46,733 nt of DNA from Phycisphaeraceae bacterium (GCA_020848195.1 JADLAP010000128.1:1-46733), one strand, 5' to 3'; shown: positions 3 through 19,167, counted from the first letter of the stretch. The notes: generated by a model from the sequence alone, not told the origin. Made by a program: numbers and translations.

Positions 3-2504
3 CAGGAGGTGCCATTTCGCGTCGGATACGCCGAGGATCGCAGGGCGGCTGTGCCGAAGATTTACTTTTCCGGCGAACACAAACTCGGTCCGTGGCTCGA
101 TGCGACCATGACCCCGTACAACCCGATCCGCAATCTGCTGATCGGGCGGGTGAGGATCGGCAACATGCCGCTCAAGGACAAGGCGTCGCGGGCGGAGCTG
201 AGCGTCCGGCGTCCGGGCGAGGCCGCTCCCATGTTCACCGCTCCGCTCCCGGCATTCGACGCGGCCGGGGTGAGCGAAACACGGGTTCAACTGCCTGCCC
301 TTGTGCCGGGCCTGTATGAAGTGACTGCCACGGTGTATGACGCGGGCGGCAATCCTATCGGGCGATCCCGCGACTACTTCATGCGATACGATCACGCCAA
401 GGAGTTGCCGTGGCTGGGCAACAGCCTTGGTGTCAGCGATAAAGTGCTTCCTCCGTGGACGCCGTTGGCGATGAAACGCGATGGTGACGGGGTCGATCTG
501 CACTGCTGGGGGCGTGTCTACCGGGTGAATGGCGGCGGCTTGCTCACCAACGCGACTGCCACCGGCGAAGCGCTGCTGGCCGGCCCGGAGCGGATCGAGA
601 TTGTCGAGAACGGCAAAGAAGTCGTGCTGAAGCCTGACGCCAAGCTGCTCGATCTGACCGAGGCGCAGCACGCCATGACCTTCAATGGTGTTCTCAAGGG
701 CGAGGGCTGGACCGTGACCACGCGGTCCAGGCTCGAATACGACGGCAACATCGAGTGCCGAATCCGTCTGGAGCCGCAGGGCGAGCGGCAGGTGGATCGC
801 ATCCGTCTGCGCATCCCGTTGACGCCGGCACAGGCCACCCATCTCCACGCCGCGGCCGGATACAACATGCGCGCAGCCACGTCGAACATCGCACTCAAGC
901 CCGATATGGGCCGGCTGTGGGACAGCGGACAGTCGGCGGCCAGCGACTACAACGGTCTCGGCTTGCTCGTAGGCAATTTCAAGCCGTTCGTCTGGGTGGG
1001 CAACGCCTGCCGCGGGCTGGCCTTCATGGCCGACAACGATCAGGGCTGGGTGCCGGACGAGACGAAAGCGGTGTCCGCCATCGAGGTTGAACGGACGGCG
1101 AATGACGTGTCGCTCATCCTCAATCTGGTGGCGCGGCCGTTCAAATTCGACAAGCCCCGCGAAGTAGTCTTCAACCTTCAAGCGACGCCCGTGCGCCCAT
1201 TGCCGGACAACTTCCGCGAGAGGCGTCTACATATTCTGGGAACCATGGCGTTCTGCCACGCCGACGATGGCGTCAAGGCGAATGACGGCAGCTTTCTGCT
1301 ACAACCCTACCGTATTTCGTACAGCAATCCGTTTCCACTGGATTGGGACAAGAGCTGTGAATTCACGCAACTCTACTACCCGGAGAATCCAAGGAACCCG
1401 TGGCGATACGAGCGGATGGTGGCCACTCCCTACCAATGCCTCAATGCGTGGCTGGACCCCGCGGAGGTTGACGATCCGCGCGTTCCCGGCCTGCAGGGCG
1501 CTAATCTGTATGGGTACATCTGCCCGGATACCACTGCCGCTGTGGATATCTGGGATGGCAACCTCACAAAGACTGATCTCGAATACCGCCTGTGGCGCTA
1601 TCAACGATGGATTACCGAGTCCGGGCTGCGCGGGATGTACTTCGACAATGTCTTCCCCACGCTGGGCGTCAATGTTGACGCGGGGCAGGGCTATGTGCTC
1701 GACTTACGCGACCGGCCCAATCTTCACGGAAAGATACAGCCCGGCTATTGCCTGAGCGGGATGCGCGAATTCTTCAAGCGGCTGCGGCATGTCTTCGCTG
1801 AGGTTGGTGTGGTCAACCCCTTTATCTGGACGCATGTGACCGACACATTCACCATCAACGCGCTGTCGTTCACCGATTTCATGATGGATGGCGAGGAGGA
1901 TCCGCAGGTGACCCCCGAGACGCCGTCATTCTCAGACCATTGGAAGCCCGAGCGAATGCAGGCGGTGCTCCCTTCGGAGAAGTGGGGCGTGCCGGTGCTC
2001 TTCATGGATAGGGTTGCCGGCGACTGGAAGCCGATGCATCTCAGTGTGGAGACCCGCCATGCGTTCCGCGACATGATCGGGTGGGAGATGCTGCATGACA
2101 GCGAGGGGTGTACCTATCACGTCGGTTGGCCGGGCGGACTCGCCCTGGCGCGGAAAGCCGATTTTCTGACCTACTGGGATCCGAAAGTGTCGTCCGCGTT
2201 GAAGTCCGACCGTCCGGACATTCTGGTCAGCGCGTGGCGGCAGGATCAAGGACTGATGCTTCTTCCGTTCAACAACAGCGCGGAAGATGTCAGGAATTGC
2301 GTCGTGAAGGTCGATCTTCGCGCGCTCGGGGCAGCTCCGACGGCGGGAACCTCGCCATTGGTCATTGATGTCGAAGCCGGCGCTCCGGAGACCGAACTCC
2401 GTGGCGCTGGGAAAGGCGCGTTCGACTACATAGTGACCGGCGATATCGTCACGATCACCATCGACATCAAGCCGCGAAACTATCGAATCCTCAGTGTGCG
2501 ATAG
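3..2504 (+). CDS. Giant secreted glycoside-hydrolase-like protein (DUF6067-like), 5' end outside the window
   Basis: The reading frame is open to the left edge, so the gene is 5'-truncated by the window and not by mutation. The first visible residues align with about residue 390 of the paralogue at 9845-13576 (shared PFR.GY and YNPIRN motifs), so an N-terminal signal peptide, a CBM9-like domain and a linker are probably upstream. The visible part covers the middle beta-rich region (CWGRVYRVNG, DNDQGWVPDE), a likely TIM barrel and a C-terminal beta domain (VSAWRQDQ, FNNS). Candidate catalytic acids are the Asp of YFDN (codon at 1644) and the Glu of MDGEED (codon at 1893); both motifs are conserved in the three downstream paralogues. 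It is probably exported and acts on polysaccharide. The catalytic role is inference; family membership is recognised by eye only. Confidence 0.75.
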   Translation, partial: QEVPFRVGYAEDRRAAVPKIYFSGEHKLGPWLDATMTPYNPIRNLLIGRVRIGNMPLKDKASRAELSVRRPGEAAPMFTAPLPAFDAAGVSETRVQLPALVPGLYEVTATVYDAGGNPIGRSRDYFMRYDHAKELPWLGNSLGVSDKVLPPWTPLAMKRDGDGVDLHCWGRVYRVNGGGLLTNATATGEALLAGPERIEIVENGKEVVLKPDAKLLDLTEAQHAMTFNGVLKGEGWTVTTRSRLEYDGNIECRIRLEPQGERQVDRIRLRIPLTPAQATHLHAAAGYNMRAATSNIALKPDMGRLWDSGQSAASDYNGLGLLVGNFKPFVWVGNACRGLAFMADNDQGWVPDETKAVSAIEVERTANDVSLILNLVARPFKFDKPREVVFNLQATPVRPLPDNFRERRLHILGTMAFCHADDGVKANDGSFLLQPYRISYSNPFPLDWDKSCEFTQLYYPENPRNPWRYERMVATPYQCLNAWLDPAEVDDPRVPGLQGANLYGYICPDTTAAVDIWDGNLTKTDLEYRLWRYQRWITESGLRGMYFDNVFPTLGVNVDAGQGYVLDLRDRPNLHGKIQPGYCLSGMREFFKRLRHVFAEVGVVNPFIWTHVTDTFTINALSFTDFMMDGEEDPQVTPETPSFSDHWKPERMQAVLPSEKWGVPVLFMDRVAGDWKPMHLSVETRHAFRDMIGWEMLHDSEGCTYHVGWPGGLALARKADFLTYWDPKVSSALKSDRPDILVSAWRQDQGLMLLPFNNSAEDVRNCVVKVDLRALGAAPTAGTSPLVIDVEAGAPETELRGAGKGAFDYIVTGDIVTITIDIKPRNYRILSVR

Positions 2505-2659
2505 AAACAGATCACGAAAGGTGGCGGCGTTGCCCGTCATGACAACCGGTTTTGAAAATAGCTCAATCCACGAAAGACTCCGAGAGCCGTAGGTCCATCA
2601 ACTATTATCGCCTGTTGGGGATATAGCAGAGTCGTGATTGACTGAAAGGAAATGACCAC

Positions 2660-5600
2660 ATGAGTAGACCATCCGTATTCGCATTCATCGTCGCCATCGT
2701 ATCTGTGACGGCCTCCCAGCCCGGCCATGCCGAGATTCCGCACGACAAAATGCCGGCATTCTGTATCCCGAAAATGACAACTCCACCCACCGTCGATGGG
2801 AGGATTGAACCGAGTGAATGGCGCGAGGCGGTGGCTGTCAGCGGAGTCGCGGAATTCCCGGCCAATGAACTCATTCCTCGACCGACTACCTACTGGCTGG
2901 CCTGGGATGACGGGCACCTGTACCTGGCCTGCCGGGCGTGGATGAAGCCCGGAGCCGGCAAACCGAAGGTGGGCGGTCGCAGTCCGCATACGGCGAGTTG
3001 CTTCGATGCGGGGATGGAACTGCATTTCCAGCCACTTGGCAAGAATGTGGACGCCAACATGGCAACCACCTCGTTCAAGTTCAATGTGAATGCGTTGGGA
3101 TTTGACGGCACACTCACCCGTGTGGCTGTGGGGCAGATGATGGCCAACTGGTTGCCGGATTTCCGAACGAAAACCCGCCTGACAGAACCGGGTAGCGCTC
3201 CCCTCGGCGGACGCTGGCTGGAGATGGAATGGGCCGGGAGCATCCGGGATTTCGAGCTTACCGGGCCGAACCGCGCCGGAGATACATGGCGGATGTTGCT
3301 GGGTTTCAACCAACTGGCCTCAGGTTGGTCGCAGGCGATGATCCCGGTCAATTCGAGTTTCTTCGATCCCGGCGGGTATCCGCTGGTGACGCTGGTGGAG
3401 AATACTCCCGCCGTGCAGGTCACGATGGAACAGCTTCCCTGGGCTTTGGACGGGGTCGCGGCGGTGACGTTCCGAGCCTACAACCCGACACAGTCTCCGG
3501 TCACCCTTTCCCTTCTTGCCCACTATGCGGACAAGGAAGGCGACCTGGTGAAGCGGGAAGTGCCGCTTGCCGTGGCGGAAGGGAAGACGGCGGAATTCGT
3601 GCTGAATGAAAAGTTCCCACGCTCGGCGAAGGACGGCACGATCTACTACCGGGTGATGCAGGGAGAGAAAGAACTGTTCCGCTATTACACGCTGTTCAAA
3701 GTCGGCTATGACGAGGAGTGGGTGAAAAGCCCTCAGTCCGCACCCGACGCTAAACCTTCCTTCTCGCTGTCCGCGACGTTCAATCCCGTGCGCAGTACGC
3801 TCCAGGTGACCGGGGACAGTTACTATCTTGACGATCCGAGCATGGCCCGCGAGATGCGCTATCGCGTTCTTAAGGCGGGCCAGGATAAACCCGTCCTCGA
3901 AGGGAGCATTGGCGAGGCAAGCACGTACTACTTTTCACGGCTTCTGGAGTTGCCCATCCTGACGCCTGGCGATTACGCGTTGGAAGCGACGCTGGGTCTT
4001 AAAGGCGACACGGTGATCGGTCCGCAGACGGTGAAGTTCAGCAAACTGGATGAGGCAAAGGCGTTTTCGGAATGGTGGGGCAAGAGCCGGGGCAACATTG
4101 AACGGGTGATTCCGCCCTTCAGCCCCATGACGCGCACCGGGGCGGTGGTCACCGCCTGGGGGCGGGCGTACAGCTTGAATGCGCTCGGATTGCCGGCCGA
4201 CATAGCTTCCCAGGAGAAGCCCGTACTGGCTGCGCCGGCCCGCATCGTGGTGGTGAGAGACGGCAAGCAGGAGATCGTGCCGCTGAATCACCTCCCCACA
4301 TTCACCGAGACCAGGGAGTGGCGGGTGAACTTTGAAGGCACTGCCCAAGGCGCAGGATTGGTCTTCCACAGCCAAGGCTGGGTCGAACAGGATGGCTTGG
4401 TGTATGTGGATCTCAGCTACGCTCCCGCCGGCGACGCGCCGGTGCAGGTGGACGGCTTGTACATCGAATTTCCCTTTTCAAACAAGGAAGCCGAAGGGCT
4501 GATTTGCCTTGGCCCTGGCGGAAATTTCGCTCCGCGCACAGTGAAACTGCTGCCGACGGACAAGCAAGGTCCGCTATGGTCCACCTTGGACATTGGGCGT
4601 ATGGGCTCGGGTATGACAGTAGGCTCTTTCTATTCCTGTGTATGGCTCGGCAACGAACAACGGGGCTTGTTGTGGTGGGGCGACAACGACCAGGGCTGGG
4701 TTCCGAGGGACGAGGTCCCGGCCCACGCCGTGCTGCGCCAGGGCAACGAGGTGGTGCTGCGCAACAACATCATCGGCGCACCCTTCACCGTGAACACCTC
4801 GCGCACGATCAGCTTCGGATACATGGCCTCGCCTTTCCGTCCGCTCGTGAAAGGCTGGCGTGCCTCCATCTTTTCGTACTACGGGCAGTCACACACGACT
4901 TTCAAGGACCCCGTGACGGGCAAGGAAGATACATATACGCACATGCTGGCTCCGCCGTTCAAGGATTCATCCCAATGGGGACCGTACTGGGCCGCACAAA
5001 AGCCGCGGTCGGACGAACGCCTTCGTCAGTACCAGTCGCTTATTCCCGGCTATGCGGGCCGGATGGACACCGAACGGGCTGTCCAGTACAGCACATGTCT
5101 GGTGGGATACGGCGCGAAATCGCTCCAGGATGATGTGTTCAGCTACTTCGCTCCGGAATGGAAGCCGGCAGGCCGCGAGACTTACAGCGATTCACTCATC
5201 AACTACTACACCTACATCATTGACCGCGCCTGTCGAGAGGGTGGATTGAAGACGATCTACTGGGATATCTTCTTCATTCCCGGTCCTCACCATTCCGTGC
5301 AGGCCGGCGCAGCGTATGTGCTGCCGGACGGTCGTGTGCAGCCTGGCTTCACCGGCTTCAATGCTCGCCGCTTCTTCATGCATACCTATTCGATTTTCGA
5401 CGAAAACGGAGCCGGACCGGGGGCACAGGTGGTCCACGGTACCAACAACTATCTGTTGCTCGCCATGCCTTGGGCCGACGCCCTGCTCGACGGCGAATAC
5501 CACCAGCTTTCAGACTCTTCAGTCATGGATTGGGTGGACGGCTATCCCGCACAGAGCATGCGCGTCATGTCCTGCTCCCACACGTTCGGGACGCAGATCA

Positions 5601-6133
5601 CCTGGATGGACCTGATGAATTTCTCGGACAAGGCTCGCTGGGAGCGTTGTTTGCGAGGCCAGATCGACTACATCCGCTTGTTCGACTCCTGGGTGACTCA
5701 CAACTGGCATAAACTGATCCACCCCCACGGGCCGCAGATCAAGTGGGGTACGGCGGCGCTGGAGTGGGGCATCAACGACGAGAAGACCGAGTACATCCCA
5801 TTCTGGCGGAATCCGTATGTGCAGTGCGCGGATAAGGACATTCTCGTTTCGTTGTGGCGATTGCCGGATCGTGTGTTGATGGTCGTGTTCAACTACGACG
5901 GTAAAAACGCCAAGGATGTCACACTTAAGGTAGACATGGATGCCTTGGGTCTGGTGCCGAAGCTGCCCTGGCAGGAGTTTGTCGGCTTGCGGGTCGTGGA
6001 GGATACCGGCGAATACGGTCGGCAAAGCATGCCGAAAGATCCCGATCCGACCATGGATATTCACAATCAAACGGTCGCCATCAAGACGATTCAGCCGCAC
6101 ACGGCACGGATCATCGGGATTCGAAAATATTGA
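2660..6133 (+). CDS. Giant secreted glycoside-hydrolase-like protein (DUF6067-like), subtype B
   Basis: This 1157-aa protein has an N-terminal signal peptide (about residues 1-24, ending GHA-E). An N-terminal CBM9/DOMON-like beta-sandwich follows (about 30-250; PTVDGRIEPSEW, YLAWDDGHLYLACRA), then Ig-like linkers (about 250-480). The middle domain shares WGRAYSLNALGLPA with the next gene, and the C-terminal half looks like a TIM barrel. The likely active-site acids are Asp869 in TIYWDIFF and Glu946 in LLDGEYH. The protein ends in a beta domain (VSLWRLPDRVLMVVFNYDG). AAAGGA at 2645-2650 lies upstream of the chosen ATG. It is the second of four tandem homologues and is closest to the next gene at 6280. 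The likely role is extracellular or periplasmic glycan cleavage; neither substrate nor CAZy family can be read from the sequence. Confidence 0.82.
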   Translation: MSRPSVFAFIVAIVSVTASQPGHAEIPHDKMPAFCIPKMTTPPTVDGRIEPSEWREAVAVSGVAEFPANELIPRPTTYWLAWDDGHLYLACRAWMKPGAGKPKVGGRSPHTASCFDAGMELHFQPLGKNVDANMATTSFKFNVNALGFDGTLTRVAVGQMMANWLPDFRTKTRLTEPGSAPLGGRWLEMEWAGSIRDFELTGPNRAGDTWRMLLGFNQLASGWSQAMIPVNSSFFDPGGYPLVTLVENTPAVQVTMEQLPWALDGVAAVTFRAYNPTQSPVTLSLLAHYADKEGDLVKREVPLAVAEGKTAEFVLNEKFPRSAKDGTIYYRVMQGEKELFRYYTLFKVGYDEEWVKSPQSAPDAKPSFSLSATFNPVRSTLQVTGDSYYLDDPSMAREMRYRVLKAGQDKPVLEGSIGEASTYYFSRLLELPILTPGDYALEATLGLKGDTVIGPQTVKFSKLDEAKAFSEWWGKSRGNIERVIPPFSPMTRTGAVVTAWGRAYSLNALGLPADIASQEKPVLAAPARIVVVRDGKQEIVPLNHLPTFTETREWRVNFEGTAQGAGLVFHSQGWVEQDGLVYVDLSYAPAGDAPVQVDGLYIEFPFSNKEAEGLICLGPGGNFAPRTVKLLPTDKQGPLWSTLDIGRMGSGMTVGSFYSCVWLGNEQRGLLWWGDNDQGWVPRDEVPAHAVLRQGNEVVLRNNIIGAPFTVNTSRTISFGYMASPFRPLVKGWRASIFSYYGQSHTTFKDPVTGKEDTYTHMLAPPFKDSSQWGPYWAAQKPRSDERLRQYQSLIPGYAGRMDTERAVQYSTCLVGYGAKSLQDDVFSYFAPEWKPAGRETYSDSLINYYTYIIDRACREGGLKTIYWDIFFIPGPHHSVQAGAAYVLPDGRVQPGFTGFNARRFFMHTYSIFDENGAGPGAQVVHGTNNYLLLAMPWADALLDGEYHQLSDSSVMDWVDGYPAQSMRVMSCSHTFGTQITWMDLMNFSDKARWERCLRGQIDYIRLFDSWVTHNWHKLIHPHGPQIKWGTAALEWGINDEKTEYIPFWRNPYVQCADKDILVSLWRLPDRVLMVVFNYDGKNAKDVTLKVDMDALGLVPKLPWQEFVGLRVVEDTGEYGRQSMPKDPDPTMDIHNQTVAIKTIQPHTARIIGIRKY

Positions 6134-6279
6134 TCACAAATGAAGTCAGGGTGCTTCACCTGACGGTGTGTGACATCGGTGCGTGCGTTAAGCCCATGCA
6201 TCTGTTGGCGATGCGCGGCGCCGGCCGTGCACCACATGGAAACCATCGCCTGAACATCACGGATTACAAGGAGACAGAT

Positions 6280-9200
6280 ATGAGTACTGTTAAAATGATG
6301 GCTACAGTTCGGAAGTTGTTGCGTATGACGTTCCTGTGTGGGTTGGCGATCGGCATGTGGGCCTTCGCTACCGCCGGCCCGGCTATGGCTGGTCTGCCCC
6401 TGGACAAAGTAACTGGATTCGCCATTCCGCGGATGAGCGCGCCGCCTCAAATTGACGGCTCGATTGATCCAGTCGAGTGGCGGGAAGCGACTGCGATTGC
6501 AGGCGTGGTGGACCAGGGCACTGACATTCTTCTTCCGCGTCCGACCACGTTCTATCTGGCTTGGGATTCGGAGCATCTCTACCTCGCATGCCGTACGTAT
6601 ATGCCGTCGGGATATAAGCCCCACATCCATGATGGTCGTTCACAGGGCTTGGCCAACTGCTTTGACGACGGATTGGAACTGCTGCTTCATCCGCGCGGGC
6701 AGAACGTGAACTCAGGCAACCGGGAAAATGCGTTCAGAATGAACCTGAACGCGCTCGGTTATGACGGTGAACTGACGCGGCTGGCGGTGGGGCAGTTGAT
6801 CAAGAACTGGCAGCCGGCCTTCACGTGCAAAACACGCGTCACGCCGCCGGGCAGCGCACCGAACGGCGGTTCTTGGTGGGAGTTGGAAGCGAGCGCGTCG
6901 CTGGCTGATTTCGAACTCACCGGCCCGCACAAGGCCGGTGATCAGTGGCGGTTCATGCTCGGCATCAATCACTTTCCGGGGTGGATGCAGGCTCGCATAC
7001 CGTGCCATGGTGGCTACTTCGTGTCCGATGGCAAGAACGTCGGCACGCTTGTCGAGAACACGCCCGCGGTGCAGCTCACGATGGATTCGCTGCACAACCT
7101 CGCATCAGACGGCACAGCCTCGATGACGGTCAAGGCGTACAACCCGGCAAGGCAGGAAGTCAAGCTCGCCATAAACATCAACGTTGCCGGCAAGATCGTG
7201 AAAAACGAGACGCTCCTCGTACCGGCGGGCGGTGAAGCACGGTACAACCTCAACGAAAAGTTGCCAACCGACGTGACTTCCGGTCTGGTTGATCTGCGCG
7301 TAACGCATAATGACACGTCACTGCTGACATACTCGGCATCCTTCAAGGTGGGAGAAAGCCCACAGACGATTGCAACACCGCCCGCGCGCGATCCGAACAA
7401 ATTCGGCTTTGTATCCACATTTAATCCGCTCCGTGAACTTCTCGTGGTGAAAGGTGATGCGTATTACCTCCCGGATCCGCGGCAGGCGAAGGCGCTGACC
7501 TATACGGTCACTGCCGAAGGTGCGACGAAACCGTATGTGAGCGGCACGATCGAGAACATGGCGGAATTCTACTTTACGGAAGTACGAAAGCTCGATGCCA
7601 TCAAGCCAGGCAAGTACAAGGTCGAAGCGTGGTTGGAGTTGAAAGATGGCCAGAGACTAGGCCCGGACTCTGCGGCTATCGAGAAAAAGGACGAAGCGAA
7701 AGCCTTCCCGCAGTGGTGGGGCAAGAAGTTCGGCGACATCGAGCGCGTGCTGTCGCCTTTCACTGCCATCATCCGGAAAGGCAATACCTTCAGTTGCTGG
7801 GGGCGAGAGTACACGCTTAACGCGCTCGGCCTGCCGGCGGGTCTTCGTTCACAGGGAGAAGCATTGATCGCCGCGCCGGCACGGATCGTGGTAGTCGTCA
7901 ACGGCAAGGAAGAGGTGGTCAAACTTGGTGCACCGACGATCACGGAGGCGACGGATTGGCGTATTCGATTTGAAGGAAAGGCGGCAGGTGCGGGGTTGGT
8001 ATTCTCCGCGAAAGGCTGGCTGGAACAGGACGGCCTTGTCTATGTAGACCTCACTTACCGGCCACAAGGCGATCAGCCCGTACAGGTGTCAGCCTTGCGA
8101 CTGGAGTTCCCGGTGGCGGAGATGGATGCCGACGGCCTGTTGTGCGTCGGCCCCGGCAACAACTATGCGGCGGAAATGGCTATACAGTTACCCAAAGACA
8201 AGCAGGGCCACCTCTGGTCCACGCTTGATCTGGGGCGTGCAGGCAGCAGGATGCGGCTCGGTTCCTTCTATCCGACGGTCTGGATCGGCAGTGACCGGCG
8301 CGGCTTTCTATGGTGGGCGGACACGGACCGCGGCTGGTTTCCGGATGACAATGTGCCGGCGCATGAAGTATTGCGTGCAGGCGGCGAAGTGGTGCTGCGC
8401 AACAACATCATCGGCAAGCCGGTGGCGTTGACAGAGGCGCGGACGATTTCGCTGAGCTACATGGCGTCGCCGTTCAAGCCGCTACCGAAGGGCTGGCGTA
8501 GCTTCGCGGCGACTTCGGATGGTACGTTTGGACCACCGTTTCGCGGTGTGCGCAAAGACTCGAAGACGGGACAGCCATTTGTCATCCCGCCAGGCGGCAA
8601 TGTGAATTACATCCATCCCGAGTCGCGGTATCCGGAGGAATGGCCTGCCCTTTGGGCGGAGCAGAAACAGGGCGCGGACGCGTGGTACCGTCGGTTCCGC
8701 TACACCGATCCATGGACTTCGCGGCACGGCGTCAATTTCACCCACATGTCCTTCCAACTCATGGGCTACGGCCACAAGTCGCTCGAAGATGACGTGTTCA
8801 ACTACTTCGGAGACGAATGGTACACAGGTAGTGGCGACACATGGAACAGCACATACATTGACTATGCAATGTACTTGTTCGATCAGGCGTTCCGCGAAGG
8901 CGGCGTGCGAAATACGTATTGGGACCTGACATTCCCCATCTTGTTCCACAGTCAGCTCAGCGGGCTGGCGTACCGTCTGCCGGATGGTAGCATCCAACCG
9001 GGCTACAACAGTTGGAACGTACGTCGATTCTTCATGCGGCTTTGGGCGCTGCAGCAGGATTACGGTCTCAACCCCGGCGCGGTCGGCAGCCACTCGACAC
9101 ATGCGTACGTGATGTGCGCACTGCCGTGGCTCGATGCGGTCCTTGATGGTGAACGGGATTGGGATCTGGACGTCAGCGATCGCGATTGGATTGACTACTA

Positions 9201-9783
9201 CCCGGTCGAGCGCATGCGCACGATGGCCTGTTCGCACAACTGGGGCGTGAGTATCACCTGGATGAGCTACCTGGCGTCACATGACGTGACGAAAGTGGTC
9301 AAAGCCAAGCGGACCAGCGCCGAGTACTTGTGGCTGTTCGATTCCTGGTGCAACCCGGAACTTTGCGCCCACAGCGCCAGCCCAGCCTATCGGTATCTGC
9401 CATTTGAGGTCTTTCGGATGCCAACGGCCGTTCTCGACTGGGGTATCAACAGCGAGCAGACGGTGTACCACTCCTTCTGGCGTAACCCATTTGTGACCGG
9501 CCAGGACAAAGATGTGCTCGTCTCGCTTTGGCAATTGCCGGATCGGATTCTTATTGAAGTCTTCAACTACAACCGGAAAGACACGAAAGACGTCACGCTG
9601 AAGATTGACCTTGATACGCTCAAGCTTATGCCGCAATTGCCGTGGCAGGAGTTCGTGGGCGTTCGGGACATCTACAAGGATGAAAAGGACGCGTCTGCGA
9701 CGCTGGATGTGGAAAGCCGAGCGATTACCGTGAAAGCTCTCGCACCGCACCGCGGGCGATTGATCGGCATCCGCAGGTACTGA
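6280..9783 (+). CDS. Giant secreted glycoside-hydrolase-like protein (DUF6067-like), subtype B
   Basis: The start is placed at ATG 6280, not at the upstream in-frame ATG at 6130. AAGGAG (6267-6272) sits eight bases before it, and the protein then begins with a proper signal peptide (positively charged start, LCGLAIGMWAFA, cleavage near PAMAG). The mature 1167-aa protein has the same layout as the preceding gene: a CBM9-like domain (QIDGSIDPVEWREA, FYLAWDSEHLYLACRT), Ig-like linkers, a middle domain (CWGREYTLNALGLPA), a barrel with Asp882 (NTYWDL) and Glu958 (VLDGERDW), and a C-terminal beta domain (FNYNRKDTKDVTLKIDLD). It is clearly a tandem duplicate of 2660-6133, and the two keep nearly the same spacing between catalytic-candidate motifs. 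Function is inferred as secreted glycan hydrolase. Confidence 0.82.
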   Translation: MSTVKMMATVRKLLRMTFLCGLAIGMWAFATAGPAMAGLPLDKVTGFAIPRMSAPPQIDGSIDPVEWREATAIAGVVDQGTDILLPRPTTFYLAWDSEHLYLACRTYMPSGYKPHIHDGRSQGLANCFDDGLELLLHPRGQNVNSGNRENAFRMNLNALGYDGELTRLAVGQLIKNWQPAFTCKTRVTPPGSAPNGGSWWELEASASLADFELTGPHKAGDQWRFMLGINHFPGWMQARIPCHGGYFVSDGKNVGTLVENTPAVQLTMDSLHNLASDGTASMTVKAYNPARQEVKLAININVAGKIVKNETLLVPAGGEARYNLNEKLPTDVTSGLVDLRVTHNDTSLLTYSASFKVGESPQTIATPPARDPNKFGFVSTFNPLRELLVVKGDAYYLPDPRQAKALTYTVTAEGATKPYVSGTIENMAEFYFTEVRKLDAIKPGKYKVEAWLELKDGQRLGPDSAAIEKKDEAKAFPQWWGKKFGDIERVLSPFTAIIRKGNTFSCWGREYTLNALGLPAGLRSQGEALIAAPARIVVVVNGKEEVVKLGAPTITEATDWRIRFEGKAAGAGLVFSAKGWLEQDGLVYVDLTYRPQGDQPVQVSALRLEFPVAEMDADGLLCVGPGNNYAAEMAIQLPKDKQGHLWSTLDLGRAGSRMRLGSFYPTVWIGSDRRGFLWWADTDRGWFPDDNVPAHEVLRAGGEVVLRNNIIGKPVALTEARTISLSYMASPFKPLPKGWRSFAATSDGTFGPPFRGVRKDSKTGQPFVIPPGGNVNYIHPESRYPEEWPALWAEQKQGADAWYRRFRYTDPWTSRHGVNFTHMSFQLMGYGHKSLEDDVFNYFGDEWYTGSGDTWNSTYIDYAMYLFDQAFREGGVRNTYWDLTFPILFHSQLSGLAYRLPDGSIQPGYNSWNVRRFFMRLWALQQDYGLNPGAVGSHSTHAYVMCALPWLDAVLDGERDWDLDVSDRDWIDYYPVERMRTMACSHNWGVSITWMSYLASHDVTKVVKAKRTSAEYLWLFDSWCNPELCAHSASPAYRYLPFEVFRMPTAVLDWGINSEQTVYHSFWRNPFVTGQDKDVLVSLWQLPDRILIEVFNYNRKDTKDVTLKIDLDTLKLMPQLPWQEFVGVRDIYKDEKDASATLDVESRAITVKALAPHRGRLIGIRRY

Positions 9784-9844
9784 CGGCAGGCTCGAAGGAC
9801 GAAAACCGAAGATGTGTGAACGTAGATATGGTGGAGATAGTTCT

Positions 9845-12800
9845 GTGAATACATTGGTACAAAAACGAATGCTTGCGCCGCTGTTCTGTCTTTGTCTGCT
9901 TGCCCAGACGATGGCCGCCGATACCCAAATGCGCATCACGGTTCCCCGGACGACGCACCCGCCCGTGCTGGACGGCAAACTGTCGGCTGGGGAGTGGGAC
10001 GACGCGGCGGCAGTCACCGGCATCATCAACCAGTTCGATGGCGTGGCCCACCCGCGTCAGGCCACGTTCTGGCTGAAGTACGACGACACGACACTGTATG
10101 TTGCGCAGCGCTCGTCCCTGCTGCCGAGCGAGAAGAACGCGCCGCCGGTGACGCTGCCCTGGCATTTCTACTGGGGCAACATGGCATACGACCGGCTGAA
10201 CGTCGCGGAAGCGATGCCGCCATTGTACTTCAAGGATAACCAGAATACGGTAACAATCGCCTTGGCGCCGAACCGCCTGAACTCAGGCGACACCCCGAGT
10301 TGGTACCGGTTCATGGCGAACATATCAAGCACGAATCTGAATCGGCGCGAGCTGTGCGAGCAGATTCGTGGCATCAAATTCAATGCGATTTCTTCTTCGG
10401 TCGATTCGCTGGACGTGCGCAAGATACCGAACACCACCGTTGCGGCGAACTCATTTAACGCCGACGGAACCGTGTGGGAGAGCGAATACGCGATCCCGCT
10501 CGATGGGATGAATGTGACCCATGCTCCGGTTGACGAGGAATGGGGTCTTCTGCTGGCGCGCGATTACCCGCAACAGGACCAGAACGCCATCGTAAAGTCG
10601 GAAAGCTACCGATTCGACTTTGTGGCGCGCAATTGGCGCAACCTCGCACCCATGAGCGCCTATCACATCGCCAGCAACTACGCACGCATCCGGCTGACAG
10701 AGCATGATCCTGTGGTGCAGGTGCTGGATATGGGCGATCTGCTGGACGGCAGAGTGAAGCCATCGCTGGCACTGCTCAATAACGCGGCACTGCCGACGAC
10801 TGTGACCGTCAAGGTGACGGTGGACGCCAAAACCCACGCCAAGACGATCGCGCTGGCCGCGGGTGAACGCAAAGTGTGGACTTCGGAGGAGATTGCCGTC
10901 ACCGACACGGCTTTGCACACGCTGGACCTTTCCGTGACGAATGCGACAGGAACCGTTTTGTACCGGCAGTCGTTGCCATTCCGCGCAGGATATGGCCGTG
11001 ACCGGACTGCCTACGTTCCCGATATGTGGATGAGCGGCGAGCCGAAGATCTGCGGCGGGATGGTGTGCGCCCTGGGTGAATACAACCCGATCCGCAACAT
11101 GCTGTGGATGAAGGTAAAGGTGGCTGGTCGCCCAGGCGAGGAGCATCGCACGGGCGCGGAGGTATCAGTGCGGCGGCAGGGGGAAGACAAGCCATTCGTA
11201 ACGTATCCAATGTCGAGTCCCGTAAAAGGGGCGGGCGATTACGAGCTGAAGACCTCGCTGCCGGAATTGAAACCGGGTGTCTATGAAATCACCGCCTGTC
11301 TTTATGGGGACAACGACAAATCGCGCGATGCGGGCGCCGCGATGATGAACGCCGCGAATCTGAACCCGACGCCTGGACCGGGACGGAAGCTGTTGGCGCG
11401 GTCCCGGTCGTTGTTCATCCGGTACGATCATGCGAAGGACCTGCCATGGATCGGAAACAAGATCGGCGTGACGGATCAAGTTTTGCCGCCATGGACGCCC
11501 ATTGAAACGAAGAACAGCGATCAGGGACTTGACCTGTCATGCTGGGGACGGACCTACAGCGTGGATGGAAGCGGCCTATTAACACAGGTACGCAATCTGG
11601 ATGAGAACATACTAAGCGGGCCAGTGCAGCTTGAGATCATGTGCGATGGGCGACCCATTACGCTGAAACCAGCCGACCGTCCGACGAATGTTCAAACGGC
11701 GAAAAACGAGGCACAGTTCGACGGATCGCTCAGCGGCGAGGATTGGAAAGTCACGGCACACGGCCAGCTCGATTACGACGGTTATCTTCAGTATCGGCTG
11801 CGGCTGGAGCCGATGGGCGTACAGAAAGTGGAGCGGATTCGTCTGATCGTCCCGCTGACCGAAAGCGAAGGGCGTTACCTGCATGCCGCGGGGTCCGCGC
11901 AGGGCAACATGCGGGCCATGCGTACCACGATGGCATTGAAGAAGGACAACGGACAGCTCTGGAACAGCGGCGAACAAGCTGGCGGACCGACTGCGAATGG
12001 TTTTGGACTGCTCGTGGGGAATTTCAAGCCATATGTGTGGGTCGGCGGGGCAAAACGTGGGATCGCCTTCATGGCCGATAGCGATGAAGGCTGGGTGCCG
12101 GACGACACCAAGACAGTTTCGGCCATCGAAGTCGTGCGCACCAAGAACAGCGTCAACCTCGTGCTCAATCTCGTAGCGCGACCGTTCACCTTCGATCATG
12201 CCCGTGAGATTACTTTCAGTCTGCAGGGGACACCGCTCAAGCCGTTGCCGGACAATTTTCGGGCCGAACGCCTGCGGATAAGCCCGACGAGCGCATTCGT
12301 GGCATATAACCCCGACGGGTGGGCGTGGAACGGGTGTCAGTTGCAACTTAACAACGAAATCTACCTGGGCGGACAAAGCTCGGCTTTGTATCCGTTGGAT
12401 TGGGAACGGAACAAGGCCTGGAACACAACGCTCGCCGCGAAGCAATGGTCGTGGATCAGCCACGTGGTCCCGATGCAGTATCAAGCATTGGACGCGGTGT
12501 TTCATACACCGGAGATCGACGATCCGCGCGTACCGGGATTGCAGGGCGCGAATTGTTACGGCTATCTGCTGCCGGAGATCACCGCGAACCGCGATATCTA
12601 CGACGGAGCAATGCAGCAGACCGAGGTGGAGTATCGAGCTTGGAGATACCAGCAGTGGATACGCGAGGCGCGCGTGCCGGGGTGGTACTTCGACAATTCG
12701 TTTTCCGGCTTTGGTGCGAATCCGGATGCCGGGATGGGCTATGTCATTGACCTGCCGGATCGCCCGGCCTTGCATGGTCAACTCCAGCCCGGCTATTCAT

Positions 12801-13576
12801 GGCGCGGGATGCGCGAGATCCTCAAACGACTGCGAGCCATCACGCTTGCGGAAGGCATCGACCCGATCATCTGCCTTCATGCGACGGACACTTACGTGAT
12901 GGGGGCATACTCAGTCGCAGATAGTCTGCTCGACGGCGAAAACGAACCAAGGGTTGGCACGGACGGGGTGTGGTTCTCGGAAAAATGGTCGCCGGAGTAC
13001 ATGCAGACCCTGAACGACGGGTTGAAGTGGGGGCTGGGAACCTACATGTTGGATATGTTTGTTCCGCTGGAACCGATGCATCTGAGCGCGCACACGCGGG
13101 CGACGTTCCGCGATCACCTCGGCTATCTCCAGCTACACGACAACGGCGCGTCCACCTACGCCATCTACATGGACTGGCGCGGCATTGATGTGAATCGCAA
13201 AGCCGACTTCCTGCCCTATTGGGATGACCAAGTCGCCGCCGCACTCACCACAGAGGCCGCGAACGTGTTCGCCAGCGCGTGGCGACAGGATAATCAACTG
13301 ATGGTGATCGTCTTCAACCGCAACGATACTTCGCAAAATCATGTAACGATCGCGGTTGATCCCGCTGCTCTGGGAATTACCGGCGGCAACGGTTTTGTTG
13401 TAAGTGATCTGCAAACCAAAAAGGCCGACGTCGATGAAGCGGCCTGGCTTGTGGAGTTGAATAACCCCGGAGTCGCCGCACTGAGTTCGCAGAACGACGG
13501 CAGGCTGCTCCACATCACACTTGATATTCGACAGCATGACTACCGACTGCTGCGCATCGAGATTGCCAAACCATGA
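9845..13576 (+). CDS. Giant secreted glycoside-hydrolase-like protein (DUF6067-like), subtype A
   Basis: GTG 9845 is preferred because GGAG (9833-9836) precedes it and the protein then starts with a compact signal peptide (LAPLFCLCLLAQTMAA). An in-frame ATG at 9812 with GAAGGA twelve bases upstream is the alternative. The 1243-aa protein has a CBM9-like N-domain (PVLDGKLSAGEWDDA), Ig-like linkers and a middle domain. A probable TIM barrel carries Asp950 in WYFDNSF and Glu1032 in LLDGENEP, followed by a C-terminal beta domain (VFASAWRQDNQLMVIVFNRN). It pairs with the truncated gene at the left edge (YNPIRN, DDPRVPGLQGAN, ALHGQLQPGY in both). Its stop codon overlaps the start of the next gene (ATGA), so it is translationally coupled to the GH36 enzyme, which supports a glycan-degrading role. 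Confidence 0.82.
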   Translation: MNTLVQKRMLAPLFCLCLLAQTMAADTQMRITVPRTTHPPVLDGKLSAGEWDDAAAVTGIINQFDGVAHPRQATFWLKYDDTTLYVAQRSSLLPSEKNAPPVTLPWHFYWGNMAYDRLNVAEAMPPLYFKDNQNTVTIALAPNRLNSGDTPSWYRFMANISSTNLNRRELCEQIRGIKFNAISSSVDSLDVRKIPNTTVAANSFNADGTVWESEYAIPLDGMNVTHAPVDEEWGLLLARDYPQQDQNAIVKSESYRFDFVARNWRNLAPMSAYHIASNYARIRLTEHDPVVQVLDMGDLLDGRVKPSLALLNNAALPTTVTVKVTVDAKTHAKTIALAAGERKVWTSEEIAVTDTALHTLDLSVTNATGTVLYRQSLPFRAGYGRDRTAYVPDMWMSGEPKICGGMVCALGEYNPIRNMLWMKVKVAGRPGEEHRTGAEVSVRRQGEDKPFVTYPMSSPVKGAGDYELKTSLPELKPGVYEITACLYGDNDKSRDAGAAMMNAANLNPTPGPGRKLLARSRSLFIRYDHAKDLPWIGNKIGVTDQVLPPWTPIETKNSDQGLDLSCWGRTYSVDGSGLLTQVRNLDENILSGPVQLEIMCDGRPITLKPADRPTNVQTAKNEAQFDGSLSGEDWKVTAHGQLDYDGYLQYRLRLEPMGVQKVERIRLIVPLTESEGRYLHAAGSAQGNMRAMRTTMALKKDNGQLWNSGEQAGGPTANGFGLLVGNFKPYVWVGGAKRGIAFMADSDEGWVPDDTKTVSAIEVVRTKNSVNLVLNLVARPFTFDHAREITFSLQGTPLKPLPDNFRAERLRISPTSAFVAYNPDGWAWNGCQLQLNNEIYLGGQSSALYPLDWERNKAWNTTLAAKQWSWISHVVPMQYQALDAVFHTPEIDDPRVPGLQGANCYGYLLPEITANRDIYDGAMQQTEVEYRAWRYQQWIREARVPGWYFDNSFSGFGANPDAGMGYVIDLPDRPALHGQLQPGYSWRGMREILKRLRAITLAEGIDPIICLHATDTYVMGAYSVADSLLDGENEPRVGTDGVWFSEKWSPEYMQTLNDGLKWGLGTYMLDMFVPLEPMHLSAHTRATFRDHLGYLQLHDNGASTYAIYMDWRGIDVNRKADFLPYWDDQVAAALTTEAANVFASAWRQDNQLMVIVFNRNDTSQNHVTIAVDPAALGITGGNGFVVSDLQTKKADVDEAAWLVELNNPGVAALSSQNDGRLLHITLDIRQHDYRLLRIEIAKP

Positions 13577-15405
13577 ACACAAGCATCCAACTCATACAGA
13601 CAGTGGGCATCGAAAGTTTGACCGCGCGTTCCGAAAACGCAACCTGCACGGCGCGGATTGTGAACGAGGAGCCAGGCGAATGGCTGGCGTTACAGGCCAT
13701 TGTCAGGAATGACAGCGACAAACCGATACGGCTTGCCGGCATCGAGTGGACTGGAAACCCCGTGCTGCCGCGGAAGAGTCCTGGCCGGTATTTCCACACC
13801 GAAAACATTCGACAGGATTTCTTCGACACAGGCACCATTTACCGAGACCGGTATTGGAAGGAATTGTCGGACGAGGCTGTGGAACTGGGCTGGTCGGAAG
13901 ATGCCGTGTTCCCCGGGGTATTCCTTGGCAGCGAAAATGAGCCGCACGGTTTATTTGTGGCGGCGGCGACACAGGAACGTTGTCATCTCATCTGGCGACT
14001 GAGCCGGACGACCTTTTCATTTCGTGAAAACCTGACAGGCCTCGACTGGATTGAATTGCCGGCCGGCGGCGAGTGGCGTGGGGAAACAATATTTCTCGCG
14101 CTCGCGCCGACCTCCGATCCTCAGTCTGCGACTGATTCATATTATGCGTATCTGCGCAAGACCGGCTTGTTCGCGCGACGCGACAAGAGCAATCCGCTGC
14201 CGCGCCAGCGTATCTGGTGCAGTTGGAATTACGGCATATGGGCCGAAACGACCGAGGCGTTGTGTTACGAGCATCTGCCCATATTCAAAAAACATTTTCC
14301 AACGGTCGGCTTTCTTCAGATCGACGACGGCTATCAACGTGTATATCAAAATGGACATCAGGCGCAGATAGATTTCGTATATGGCGCAGGCCCGGCGTTT
14401 GACCAGAAGAAATATCCGTCTTCGCCCCGAGAATTCACGAGCCGCATCAAAGCAGCCGGTCTTCGGCCTGCGATCTGGCTGGGACTATGGGCCACTGAAT
14501 CATCACCCATGCTCGCCGAACATCCCGATTGGGTTCTGCGGCTGAAGGATGGCAGCCCCTTGCGCGTCGGTCCGGACCCTACACCTGAACATCCAGATCC
14601 CCGTCGGCAATGTGTTCTAGATGTATCCGTGCCCGGTGTACGCGACTATCTCGATTTCATGTGCCGCACCGTATTTCAGGAGTGGGGATTTGAAGGCGTG
14701 AAACTTGATTTCAGTTCCTTTGCCTTCGAGTGCAAGCGATGTCGGTATCAAAATCCCGGACGCACCGCGCCCGAATACCGGCGCTGGCTCATGGAGATGT
14801 TTCGCAAGTATCTTCCCGTGGACGGGTTTTTCGGATGGTGCGTCGTATGTGGCACCGGCAATCCTTTGTACGCAGCAGGCGGAGCTGATTACTTTCGCTG
14901 CGCGGAGGACATAGGCGAAGGCCATTGGCCGATGGTCAAAAACATTGCCACGTGGTGCGCCAACACCGGCATGCTGATGCAGGAGCGGCCGATTCTGCCG
15001 AACATTGATTCCATCGGCTGGAGTCGGTATTGGACGCAGACCCAATGGCAGACGTGGCTCAACCTCGCCGCTGTCACCGGCATGGCGATCGAAGTCAGCG
15101 GGAACCTGACACAGTTGGATGACGCCACGCTTCACCGGCTCAACCGGACGCTCGAACTCTCGGACCCGGCCCGCCGCGTTCGCTGTCTCGACCTGCCTCA
15201 CGGCAAAGTCGAATCGCCGCCGCGACTCTGGCTTGCCGAGGGGAACGACGAAGCCTACCTTGCCATCTTCAACTGGAGCGACGCACCTGCCACGACCGAT
15301 TTGCCCAAGCTCGCGGAAGGCGCGGTAGACGCATGGACCGGTGCTTCGTTCCGTCCGTCAATGTTACCCCCACACGGCTCCGTATTGTTGCGTCTGGTCA
15401 AGTGA
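13573..15405 (+). CDS. Alpha-galactosidase, GH36 family
   Basis: GH36 enzymes remove terminal alpha-linked galactose from oligo- and polysaccharides with retention of configuration. The 610-aa protein shows the family landmarks in order: an N-terminal beta-supersandwich, WCSWNYGIW at the start of the barrel, FLQIDDGYQ, LRPAIWLGLW, EHPDWVLR, GVKLDFSSF and RCAEDIG. Asp379 in KLDF is the expected nucleophile and Asp446 in AEDIG the expected acid/base. No signal peptide is evident, so the enzyme is probably cytoplasmic, or periplasmic by an unrecognised route. It may finish oligosaccharides released by the giant secreted proteins. The ATGA overlap with the upstream gene indicates coupled translation. 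The length is close to that of compact GH36 members. Confidence 0.88.
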   Translation: MNTSIQLIQTVGIESLTARSENATCTARIVNEEPGEWLALQAIVRNDSDKPIRLAGIEWTGNPVLPRKSPGRYFHTENIRQDFFDTGTIYRDRYWKELSDEAVELGWSEDAVFPGVFLGSENEPHGLFVAAATQERCHLIWRLSRTTFSFRENLTGLDWIELPAGGEWRGETIFLALAPTSDPQSATDSYYAYLRKTGLFARRDKSNPLPRQRIWCSWNYGIWAETTEALCYEHLPIFKKHFPTVGFLQIDDGYQRVYQNGHQAQIDFVYGAGPAFDQKKYPSSPREFTSRIKAAGLRPAIWLGLWATESSPMLAEHPDWVLRLKDGSPLRVGPDPTPEHPDPRRQCVLDVSVPGVRDYLDFMCRTVFQEWGFEGVKLDFSSFAFECKRCRYQNPGRTAPEYRRWLMEMFRKYLPVDGFFGWCVVCGTGNPLYAAGGADYFRCAEDIGEGHWPMVKNIATWCANTGMLMQERPILPNIDSIGWSRYWTQTQWQTWLNLAAVTGMAIEVSGNLTQLDDATLHRLNRTLELSDPARRVRCLDLPHGKVESPPRLWLAEGNDEAYLAIFNWSDAPATTDLPKLAEGAVDAWTGASFRPSMLPPHGSVLLRLVK

Positions 15406-15502: not shown

Positions 15503-17668
15503 ATGCAAGCGGCAACTATGAAGACTATCCAGACACACAACCTTCATCGCACTCAGCCCACACAAAAGTGGATTGAAGGGATTCCGTCCGGCAACGGAAC
15601 ATTGGGGGTCATGGCATGGGGCGGTCCCAGCGATCTGGTCTTGTCGCTGGATCGTTCCGATCTTTGGTGGACGGAGAAGAGACGGCGCATCACCGCCGGC
15701 TCGTTGGTGTTGTCCTGCGGCAACGGAAGCCGTTTTGAAGAAGGGCTTGACCTCGCCAGCGCGGTTGCCTATCGCGTCACCGATCAGCGACGGTTGGAGT
15801 GGTTCGTGCATGCGGACCAACCCGTTTTGTGCTTCCGCGTCACATCGTCTCCCAGGTCTTACCGCTTTCATTGGCGGCCGCCGGAGTTGTGGAGCGGGGC
15901 TGTTGCGGAAGTTCAGCGATACTCCCGACAACTTGAGGGCAAGCCGCGTGGACGTCTTGTCAATCCTCATGCCGGATGCGCCAGTTCTGAATGCGGGGTA
16001 TTGCACGGCATGGCATTCATGCGATTTCTGATCAATAAACGTCCCCATGTGCTCATAGGTGTGCGGGCCTGTCAGCGAGGTGAGACGATTCCCATTCGAC
16101 GCCGAGAAGACGGTTATGAAATAGCCGCCCAGGCCGGTAGTGAGTTGTTGTTACTGGTCAGCATTTGGAATCTCGAACAAAATCCGGAACAGGAACTGGA
16201 ATCGGCCATCGATCAACTCGCGGAACGACATGGCCACTGGGCTTCCTTGCTGGCGGGGCACCGGACATGGTGGCGGGATTTCTGGTCACGCAGCAGCGTT
16301 CGTTTATCCAATTCCATTCTGGAACGTTTGTGGTATCGGGGCACGTATCAGTTGGGTTGCATCTGTCGCCCCAGCACGCAGCCGATCGGTCTTCAAGGTG
16401 TTTGGGGACTGGACGGCGTGCCGCCGTGGAACGGGGCGTACACCTGGGACTTGAACGTGCAGACGTGCTATTGGCCGATCTACACCGGCAACCACCTTGA
16501 GATGGGGCATTCCCTGTACGATTGGTATTTCGCCAGGTTGCCGCAGCTTCAGGAATTCGCGCGACAGTCCGGCCATCCCGGCGCGGCCTTGCCACTGCAA
16601 ACCGACAACCACTGCGCAACCTCGTTGCCGGAGGGATGCCACTTGCAGCCGGCGCACGGCGCGTGGGTCTGCCACAATTTCTGGCAACACTTCGTCTATA
16701 CGCAGGATCGGGAGTTCTTGCTGAACCGTTGCCTGCCAGTCTTCCGTGAGCACCTGAAGTTTCAACGGAGCCGCTGGCGCAAAGGCGATGACCACCGGTA
16801 TCACCTCAGCGAAGCTAGTTCTCCTGAAATCGAAACCCTGGCCACCCCGCAATGTCCGTGTCGTGACTCCGCTTATGAAATCGCATTCGGCAAGTTTCTG
16901 GCTGGAGCCTACCGGCAAACCGCACGACTGCTGGGTCTGCGCAACGACGAGTTGTCGGCGTGGGCCATGGATTTTCAGCGCAATGTCGTTCCGTATCCCA
17001 CAGCCCGGACACACAGCTCCAATCACTATTGGCCGGAAGACCCGGTGGTGCCGGATTACTTCGTCGAATGGCCGGGGTTGGAAACGCAACTTTCCCACCG
17101 GCATTTTTCGCATATGGCCATGTTGTACCCGCTGGGTGAGATCCACCGCTTCAGCCCGTATCGCACCCTGCGCACCGCCCAGAACGCGATCCACCTCATG
17201 ATCATGCGGGGAACCGGGGTGTGGGTCGGCTTCTCATTCCCATGGGCCAGTCTGCTTGCGACGCGGGCGGCCTGGCCGCGGCGGATGCCGACGCACATGC
17301 TCGAGTCCTTCGCTCGCAACGTCGTCGTTCCTTTCAACGGGCTGACCCTCAACGAAGATTATTTGCGGCTGGGAACCATCTGCCAGACGGGCAGTTGCGG
17401 ACCCTACCAGATCGAGGATTTCACCATTGAATCCAGCATGATGGCCGTCACCGCCGTGCAGGAAATGCTGGTGCACGCGGCGGGTGATCAACTGGTGTTG
17501 GCCGGCGGAGCCTCACCCGAACTTGACGCGGAGTTCCGTGGGCTGCGCAGCCCCTTCGGCGATCTGGTATCCGGCAAAATCGAGGGCGGCCAGTTCAGGG
17601 GTGGCGAACTACGCAGCGAACACACCGGCGTACGCCCGTTGGCCCCGGTTCGACAACCCCAAACATAA
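15503..17668 (+). CDS. GH95-like glycosidase (alpha-L-fucosidase/galactosidase-type)
   Basis: GH95 enzymes are inverting alpha-L-fucosidases or alpha-L-galactosidases with an (alpha/alpha)6 barrel. The 721-aa product opens with the family's N-terminal beta domain (GIPSGNGTLGVMAWG, LDRSDLWW). It then shows GLQGVWG, the asparagine-bearing TWDLNVQTCYWP (Asn318), HGAWVCHNFWQH, a general-acid candidate in SSPE (Glu442) and HRHFSHMAMLYP. Where classical members have an Asp in a FQIDGNFG-like motif, this protein reads YQIEDFTIES, so base position or specificity may differ. No signal peptide is obvious from either ATG (15503, or 15518 as alternative), and neither has a good ribosome binding site. It follows the GH36 gene by 97 bp and probably belongs to the same transcript. 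Confidence 0.72.
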   Translation: MQAATMKTIQTHNLHRTQPTQKWIEGIPSGNGTLGVMAWGGPSDLVLSLDRSDLWWTEKRRRITAGSLVLSCGNGSRFEEGLDLASAVAYRVTDQRRLEWFVHADQPVLCFRVTSSPRSYRFHWRPPELWSGAVAEVQRYSRQLEGKPRGRLVNPHAGCASSECGVLHGMAFMRFLINKRPHVLIGVRACQRGETIPIRRREDGYEIAAQAGSELLLLVSIWNLEQNPEQELESAIDQLAERHGHWASLLAGHRTWWRDFWSRSSVRLSNSILERLWYRGTYQLGCICRPSTQPIGLQGVWGLDGVPPWNGAYTWDLNVQTCYWPIYTGNHLEMGHSLYDWYFARLPQLQEFARQSGHPGAALPLQTDNHCATSLPEGCHLQPAHGAWVCHNFWQHFVYTQDREFLLNRCLPVFREHLKFQRSRWRKGDDHRYHLSEASSPEIETLATPQCPCRDSAYEIAFGKFLAGAYRQTARLLGLRNDELSAWAMDFQRNVVPYPTARTHSSNHYWPEDPVVPDYFVEWPGLETQLSHRHFSHMAMLYPLGEIHRFSPYRTLRTAQNAIHLMIMRGTGVWVGFSFPWASLLATRAAWPRRMPTHMLESFARNVVVPFNGLTLNEDYLRLGTICQTGSCGPYQIEDFTIESSMMAVTAVQEMLVHAAGDQLVLAGGASPELDAEFRGLRSPFGDLVSGKIEGGQFRGGELRSEHTGVRPLAPVRQPQT

Positions 17669-17808: not shown

Positions 17809-19056
17809 CTAGCCAACTGACTTGGCGAGATACTTCGCCGCGGCCTGAACAAAAAAGATCGTGCCCAGGTCACGTATGTAATACGGCAGGCTGTCCGTGC
17901 CATCCGGCGGAAGGACTTTTTCCAGAATCACGCCGCGAAGGTTCGGGTCCGAAGTTTCCCTGAGTTGCACTTTCATACAAAAGTCCAAGGCCCGTTCGGC
18001 GTCACGTAGCCAGGCTTCATCGCCGGTTTCGTGAAAGACTTCGAGGAAGAAGATCGCGGCGCACGCGGAGCCTGAGGTCGCGTGGCCGAAGGAGTCGGTG
18101 TTGATGCAACCGGTGGCATGGTCGTAGCAGGTTCCGCGGAAATAGCCGCCATCGCGGCGCATAGCTTGGCGCGTGAACCGCGCGGAAGCCATGGCGGTGT
18201 CAAGGAATTCGTGCCGGCCTGTCTGTCGCCAGAGACCGAGCAGCGGCATGCCCCACCAGTATGTGTGTCGGGGGTGAAATGACATCTGATCCGGGTGACA
18301 TGGTGCATAGTCCACCCAGTTGCCCGCGGGCCGCTGGCAGGCGACGAGGGTTTGGGCGATGCGCACGGCAACATCGAGGAATCGGGGATCGCCGGTGAGT
18401 CGATGCAATTTCAGCCAGATGGCGTCATCGAGCAGCGGACGACCGCCGATGTTGTCGCGGGTCAGGAATGGCGGAGGCAGGATCACCTCGTGCTTTGCCG
18501 GGTGGTAGCCGTCGCGGCACAAGCCTTCGTCGGCCATGAACAGTTTGTCCAGGACAAACGTGCCGGCGGCGACCACGCGGTCGCGCATCTCCGTGGATTG
18601 GTCGTGTTCCGCCAACAGCAGCAGGCCATCCATGCACTCAAGGATGGCGGAAGTGTTGACCCATTCGCCGCTGTTTTCGAAGGCGAGGATCAGGCCATGG
18701 TCCGGCTGATCCTCGCCCCAGACCTGCTTGTCGAGAATGAAGTCCGCGCCGAGACGAGCCGCGTGAATGTACTTTGGATTGTGCAACAAGCCGGACGCCA
18801 GGACCAGCGATTTGACAGCCTGGCCGGTATGCCAGACGGGGCAGAAGAATTTCCACTTGCGTGTCGCGGCATGGTATTCGCCACGCATCGCGCCCTTCCA
18901 CGAGGCATACGTGAAATGCCACGGATCTTCGACCGTCAGAGATGTTTCTTTGACCTGTGCGACATCCGTCAGCCAGTCTGAAGCACGGCGCAAAGACTCC
19001 GCAAGGTCCAACCCAAGCTTGGTATGCCGCACCGATTCTCGCACATCAACACGCAT
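17809..19056 (-). CDS. (alpha/alpha)6-barrel glycosidase-like protein
   Basis: The 415-aa protein is built of repeated helical hairpins with aromatic- and acid-rich turns (FCPVWHTGQAVKSL, GEWVNTSAILECMDGL, DDAIWLKLHRLTGDPRFLD, WWGMPLLGLWRQTG, SFGHATSGSACAAIFFLE). This pattern is typical of six-hairpin glycosidases and related GH88/GH105/GH127-like or epimerase-like barrels, and I cannot assign the exact family. No signal peptide is seen, which suggests a cytoplasmic enzyme acting on imported oligosaccharide. It is the last gene of the minus-strand run after the esterase. AAAAGG precedes the ATG. The start region is part of a 37-bp direct repeat whose second copy lies at the end of the upstream gene. 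Confidence 0.7.
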   Translation of the reverse strand: MRVDVRESVRHTKLGLDLAESLRRASDWLTDVAQVKETSLTVEDPWHFTYASWKGAMRGEYHAATRKWKFFCPVWHTGQAVKSLVLASGLLHNPKYIHAARLGADFILDKQVWGEDQPDHGLILAFENSGEWVNTSAILECMDGLLLLAEHDQSTEMRDRVVAAGTFVLDKLFMADEGLCRDGYHPAKHEVILPPPFLTRDNIGGRPLLDDAIWLKLHRLTGDPRFLDVAVRIAQTLVACQRPAGNWVDYAPCHPDQMSFHPRHTYWWGMPLLGLWRQTGRHEFLDTAMASARFTRQAMRRDGGYFRGTCYDHATGCINTDSFGHATSGSACAAIFFLEVFHETGDEAWLRDAERALDFCMKVQLRETSDPNLRGVILEKVLPPDGTDSLPYYIRDLGTIFFVQAAAKYLAKSVG

Positions 19057-19167
19057 TCATGCACCCTTTTCGCTGTCGCATCAAAAATAAATGTACTTAT
19101 ACCCTTTTTTCGGGCTACCCATTTTTCGGGCCTCGCGCGTCAGCACGCATTTATGTGCCCTTTTCGT
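19037..19167 (-). repeat. 37-bp imperfect direct repeat plus 16-bp tandem repeat around a gene start
   Basis: Copies at 19037-19073 and 19131-19167 agree at 29 of 37 positions, and all differences are transitions. The first copy contains the ribosome binding site, ATG and first codons of the 17809-19056 gene. The second overlaps the stop codon of the esterase. Between them, TACCC(T/A)TTTTTCGGGC occurs twice head-to-tail (19100-19115, 19116-19131) with one difference. On the minus strand the duplicated copy opens an 11-codon frame that imitates the start of the true gene and then stops. Confidence 0.85.

Follow-up and report, generated by a model that had tools for sequence, protein, structure and literature searches.

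What are the four very large genes that stand in tandem at the edge of a contig from a Phycisphaeraceae bacterium? In the window, which is the whole 46,733-nucleotide stretch of DNA that was analyzed, four same-strand open reading frames were called at 3-2504, 2660-6133, 6130-9783, and 9812-13576. A first-pass annotation had read them as two subtypes of secreted, glycoside hydrolase-like proteins with a matching pair of candidate catalytic acids and no assigned activity, which may form a new glycoside hydrolase family. Here we ask what family these genes belong to, whether the two acids are plausible catalytic residues, and what the proteins might do.

Two subtypes in a four-gene array

The proposed A-B-B-A order is confirmed by BLASTP comparison of the four genes. 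Genes 1 and 4 (subtype A) are 45% identical and genes 2 and 3 (subtype B) are 47% identical over 1170 columns, while the cross-subtype pairs are 23-27% identical. Given that the cross-pairs have E values from 1e-44 to 1e-65, all four genes are homologous. The motifs quoted for the two subtypes lie where they had been placed, except that EDTGEYG occurs only in gene 2, gene 3 having just the PWQEFVG-type end. The pairing of YFD or YWD with a later DGE also holds for every gene: a six-frame scan of the window for Y[FW]D with a DGE 76-83 residues downstream returned four matches, exactly one per gene, with Asp-to-Glu distances of 83, 77, 76, and 82 residues in genes 1 to 4. The predicted size of 1150-1250 residues and the CBM9-like N-terminal domain can be shown for genes 2-4 but not for gene 1, which runs off the contig start and is visible as 833 residues lacking the N-terminus. 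Lastly, the most likely start of gene 3 is ATG 6280 and not TTG 6130: AAGGAG lies ahead of ATG 6280, and the protein then has a signal-peptide-like beginning and a length of 1167 residues.

Table 1. Coordinates of genes, predicted domains, and candidate active-site residues in the window.
Feature	Coordinates	Strand	Remarks
Gene 1	3..2504	+	subtype A; 5'-truncated at contig edge; PF19543
Gene 2	2660..6133	+	subtype B, lineage B1; signal peptide by eye; PF19543
Gene 3	6280..9783	+	subtype B, lineage B2; start most likely ATG 6280, moved from TTG 6130; PF19543
Gene 4	9812..13576	+	subtype A; stop overlaps next gene's start (ATGA); PF19543
Gene 5, GH36-like, overlaps gene 4	13573..15405	+	Melibiase barrel just below Pfam cut-off
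Gene 6, GH95-like catalytic domain	15503..17668	+	Pfam
Gene 2 CBM9-like N-terminal domain, residues 29-249	2744..3406	+	VIA-align Z 14.4-15.8 to 4jpq, 7nwn, 1i82
Gene 2 super-beta-sandwich, residues 480-725	4097..4834	+	galactose-mutarotase/LacZ domain 5/PL26-like, Z 14-18; main PF19543 match
Gene 2 predicted (beta/alpha)8-type barrel, residues 738-1050	4871..5809	+	strand count from DSSP, model mc748ac5bae3a
Gene 1 Asp548 (YFD)	1644..1646	+	motif position
Gene 1 Glu631 (DGE)	1893..1895	+	motif position
Gene 2 Asp869 (YWD), proposed nucleophile, end of beta4	5264..5266	+	61/61; strand 865-869
Gene 2 Arg903, invariant	5366..5368	+	61/61
Gene 2 His926, end of beta5	5435..5437	+	60/61; strand 923-926
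Gene 2 Glu946 (DGE), proposed acid/base, just past beta6	5495..5497	+	61/61; strand 941-944
Gene 3 Asp (YWD), residue 932 numbered from 6130	8923..8925	+	motif position
Gene 3 Glu (DGE), residue 1008 numbered from 6130	9151..9153	+	motif position
Gene 4 Asp961 (YFD), model residue 571	12692..12694	+	end of strand 957-960
Gene 4 Glu1043 (DGE), model residue 653	12938..12940	+	after model strand 648-651

Membership in PF19543 and the GH123 label

The four genes do have an assigned family. With the profile of Pfam PF19543 (GH123_N; curated cut-off of 22 bits), which we take to be the family also called DUF6067, all of them reach 46-70 bits, and 28 of the 31 homologs tested match this profile as well. 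A search of NCBIfam brought up no relevant family for genes 1-4. The match of the four genes is confined to about positions 320-515 and 750-931 of the 969-position model, whereas a canonical member (L092) aligns from position 2 to 968 and so includes an N-terminal sandwich. In L092 and a second full-length member (L093), the sandwich ahead of the shared part matches Glyco_hydro_123_N_2, and L092 also weakly matches the structures 5l7r/5l7v (E 0.03). The Pfam name probably stems from this GH123-like sandwich at the start of the canonical members. Canonical PF19543 proteins have the super-beta-sandwich, the barrel, and the in-register Asp, Arg, His, and Glu in common with genes 1-4, but the window genes carry CBM9-like and further beta-sandwich domains where the canonical proteins begin with the GH123-like sandwich.

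The family name and the N-terminal sandwich of canonical members would suggest true GH123 beta-N-acetylgalactosaminidases, acting by substrate-assisted catalysis through a DE motif. GH123 enzymes require an adjacent Asp-Glu (PMC11087588), but no conserved adjacent pair is present in these genes, where the invariant Asp and the invariant Glu are spaced by 76-83 residues, and Pfam profiles detect no GH123 catalytic domain (PF13320/DUF4091) in any of the four. The one PF13320 gene of this genome, its real GH123, is a different gene that sits elsewhere, separate from the array. We therefore regard GH123 activity as extremely improbable. The DSSM_1 protein resembles the window genes in its GH123-type annotation, its multi-domain build, and its lack of both the DE motif and DUF4091; its domain 2 is a GH123-like sandwich, its barrel was likened to that of GH66 structure 3WNM, and it was set aside as a non-beta-NGA candidate (Sumida et al. 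2024; PMC11087588). Judged by this description, DSSM_1 is probably another PF19543 member.

In the open-access literature we found no activity test of any PF19543 member and no paper on DUF6067 or DUF6259. The four genes belong to a family that is filed under the misleading name GH123_N, and are not categorically new. The suggestion of a new glycoside hydrolase family is plausible for PF19543 as a whole but not for these four genes by themselves.

A predicted barrel with two invariant acids

To place the candidate residues we used AlphaFold (AF2) models of both subtypes, one of full-length gene 2 (pLDDT 85.6, pTM 0.86) and one of gene 4 residues 391-1254 (pLDDT 77.7, pTM 0.83), in which the first barrel strands are weak (pLDDT 35-60). 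In both models, of three successive strands, the first ends with the Asp, the second with the His, and the third is followed by the Glu; from their order in DSSP, we read these strands as beta4, beta5, and beta6. Strands four and six of a (beta/alpha)8 barrel line one pocket, in which the beta4 Asp and the beta6 Glu may face each other. A CBM9 fold is supported for gene 2 by its predicted structure and for genes 3 and 4 by their homology to gene 2; the fold of this N-terminal domain agrees with CBM9, although the Pfam CBM9_1 threshold is not reached in the window genes.

We examined conservation in 61 non-redundant barrels (pairwise identity below 80%) drawn from public genomes of Planctomycetota, Lentisphaerota, Verrucomicrobiota, Gemmatimonadota, Chloroflexota, and others. 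The Asp of YxD, the Arg, and the Glu of GE are each present in all 61 and the His in 60; the residue preceding the Glu is usually Gly. No further acidic column is conserved in 90% or more of these barrels. The same four residues are in register in the canonical and intermediate PF19543 barrels (hhalign 99.9%, E 1.5e-31). Asp and Glu are therefore the sole acids kept throughout, and they lie at the ends of strands four and six of the predicted barrel, in agreement with the catalytic role first proposed for them, a role that we infer. Family, conservation, and predicted geometry together support a glycoside hydrolase with an Asp/Glu pair. Could the barrel instead have decayed, leaving non-catalytic proteins that bind carbohydrate or serve as scaffolds? 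The large binding N-domain and the lack of a known activity would fit, but full retention of Asp, Arg, and Glu in 61 divergent barrels is not expected of a decayed site, and we consider this very unlikely.

Sequence searches identified no characterized or solved homolog of the barrel; against solved structures, the best hits of a four-gene profile (E 0.84) and of a barrel profile (E 0.03) were both unrelated proteins. In fold searches, the match lists were dominated by the super-sandwich and the barrel was not isolated, and a viral structure library returned repetitive beta-rich proteins only. PL26 exo-rhamnogalacturonan lyase heads the structural matches (Z 17.5-18.1), raising the idea that the genes encode polysaccharide lyases. 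The alignment covers mostly the super-sandwich, however, which is also found in LacZ and GH38 (Z 14-17), and an invariant acid pair is atypical of lyases. We give a lyase activity little credence.

The nearest relative of the barrel is DUF6259 (PF19773), which the barrel profile matches at 86.6% (E 4.5e-6) with the beta4 YxD Asp in register, over only about 70 columns. The conserved Glu of DUF6259 is at what looks like beta5, versus beta6 in the window genes. This different strand, together with a His that is kept in 60 of 61 barrels and ends a strand of its own, is consistent with a glycoside hydrolase that is inverting or uses another catalytic pair, for instance the beta5 His with either Asp or Glu, the other acid only binding substrate. 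We consider such a mechanism unlikely but worth keeping in mind; against it, no acid other than Asp and Glu is fully invariant, and these two sit at barrel strand ends. Elsewhere in the window, a 546-residue protein encoded at 33938-35578 on the minus strand has no Pfam match at E 0.01 and contains a barrel-like FYLDTYG and, some 45 residues further on, TEHG, an arrangement similar to that of DUF6259.

Several intermediate PF19543 members have weak matches to the profiles of GH66, DUF6259, and GHL6 around beta4. Four short PF19543 proteins without CBM9 (L096, L097, L107, and L116) match both GHL6 and DUF6259, and two of them also GH66, which suggests that the PF19543, GHL6, DUF6259, and GH66 Pfam families form one barrel superfamily. 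GH66 dextranases and CITases have an Asp on beta4 and a Glu on beta6. The GH66 profile (PF13199) has no match in the window genes at E 1. Within the phylum, GH66 matches are mostly partial, and GH101 yields only two sub-threshold matches, too few for a profile comparison.

Origin of the array and a proposed function

A phylogenetic tree indicates that the array joins old lineages and not recent copies. Gene 4 groups with a Verrucomicrobia A-type copy and not with gene 1 (support 96/89). Genes 2 and 3 belong to two separate, well-supported clades that include members of other phyla, and on these placements we reject a recent tandem duplication. The PF19543-type barrel is patchy in the phylum, being found in 19 of the 294 genomes sampled, and this one genome has at least 13. 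One of these paralogs (G000:C295:140-1060) reads through a single TAG and is possibly a pseudogene or an assembly error. No match to the array was found in plasmids.

The gene neighborhood offers clues to function. The array continues as an operon, in which gene 4 overlaps the GH36-like gene 5 and the GH95-like gene 6 follows. The pairing of an A-type gene with a GH36-like gene recurs in another phylum: on a Lentisphaerae contig (L010:3-4199), an A-type gene precedes a GH36-like gene that is 47% identical to gene 5. On a Verrucomicrobia contig (L009:3567-10819), an A-type and a B-type PF19543 gene adjoin, echoing the A-B order of the window. In a further contig (L012:1-3621), a single open reading frame with DUF4838, alpha-L-fucosidase (GH29), and GDSL lipase domains lies immediately upstream of a B-type gene. 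Adjoining the array in the window is a divergent block (17809-23360, minus strand) that encodes a weak GH127-like fold, a BD-FAE-type esterase, an unassigned protein, a DUF1559 prepilin-like protein, and a LacI-type regulator; this block and the array are possibly one glycan-use locus.

Alpha-acting families such as GH31, GH36, GH97, and GH101 combine a super-sandwich, a barrel with a beta4 Asp, and a C-terminal sandwich. The layout of the window genes is like that of GH36, GH97, and GH101, but no catalytic-domain profile of these families matches them; their C-terminal end weakly matches Melibiase_C and GLGE_C in Pfam. We propose, as the probable reading, that the products of genes 1-4 are secreted glycoside hydrolases with several domains, belonging to the PF19543 barrel family. 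Each protein would comprise, in order, a CBM9-like sugar-binding domain, two beta-sandwiches, a mutarotase-like super-beta-sandwich, the (beta/alpha)8 barrel, and a C-terminal beta-sandwich. In the barrel, the nucleophile would be the Asp that ends beta4, and the Glu that follows beta6 would serve as acid/base; the beta5 His and the Arg in the helix after it would hold the active site. We consider a retaining alpha-glycosidase most likely, given that the layout and the beta4 Asp are common to alpha-acting families. Subtype A probably acts together with the product of the overlapping GH36-like gene, on a glycan of the alpha-galactoside type, a guess at substrate that we draw from the gene neighbors alone.

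For annotation, the consequence is direct. A 2026 annotation tool assigns PF19543 to GH123 (PMC13355591). Pipelines that map the family in this way will overcount beta-N-acetylgalactosaminidases and overlook a candidate enzyme type. With so conserved a set of residues, the catalytic claim can be put to a direct test. We see an even chance that the GH123 label hides an active glycoside hydrolase family, that of the PF19543 barrel, which would lack a characterized member and have its active site formed by Asp(beta4), His(beta5), and Glu(beta6); its CBM9-bearing subtypes A and B, with distinct substrates, would then be the basis of a new CAZy family or of new subfamilies.
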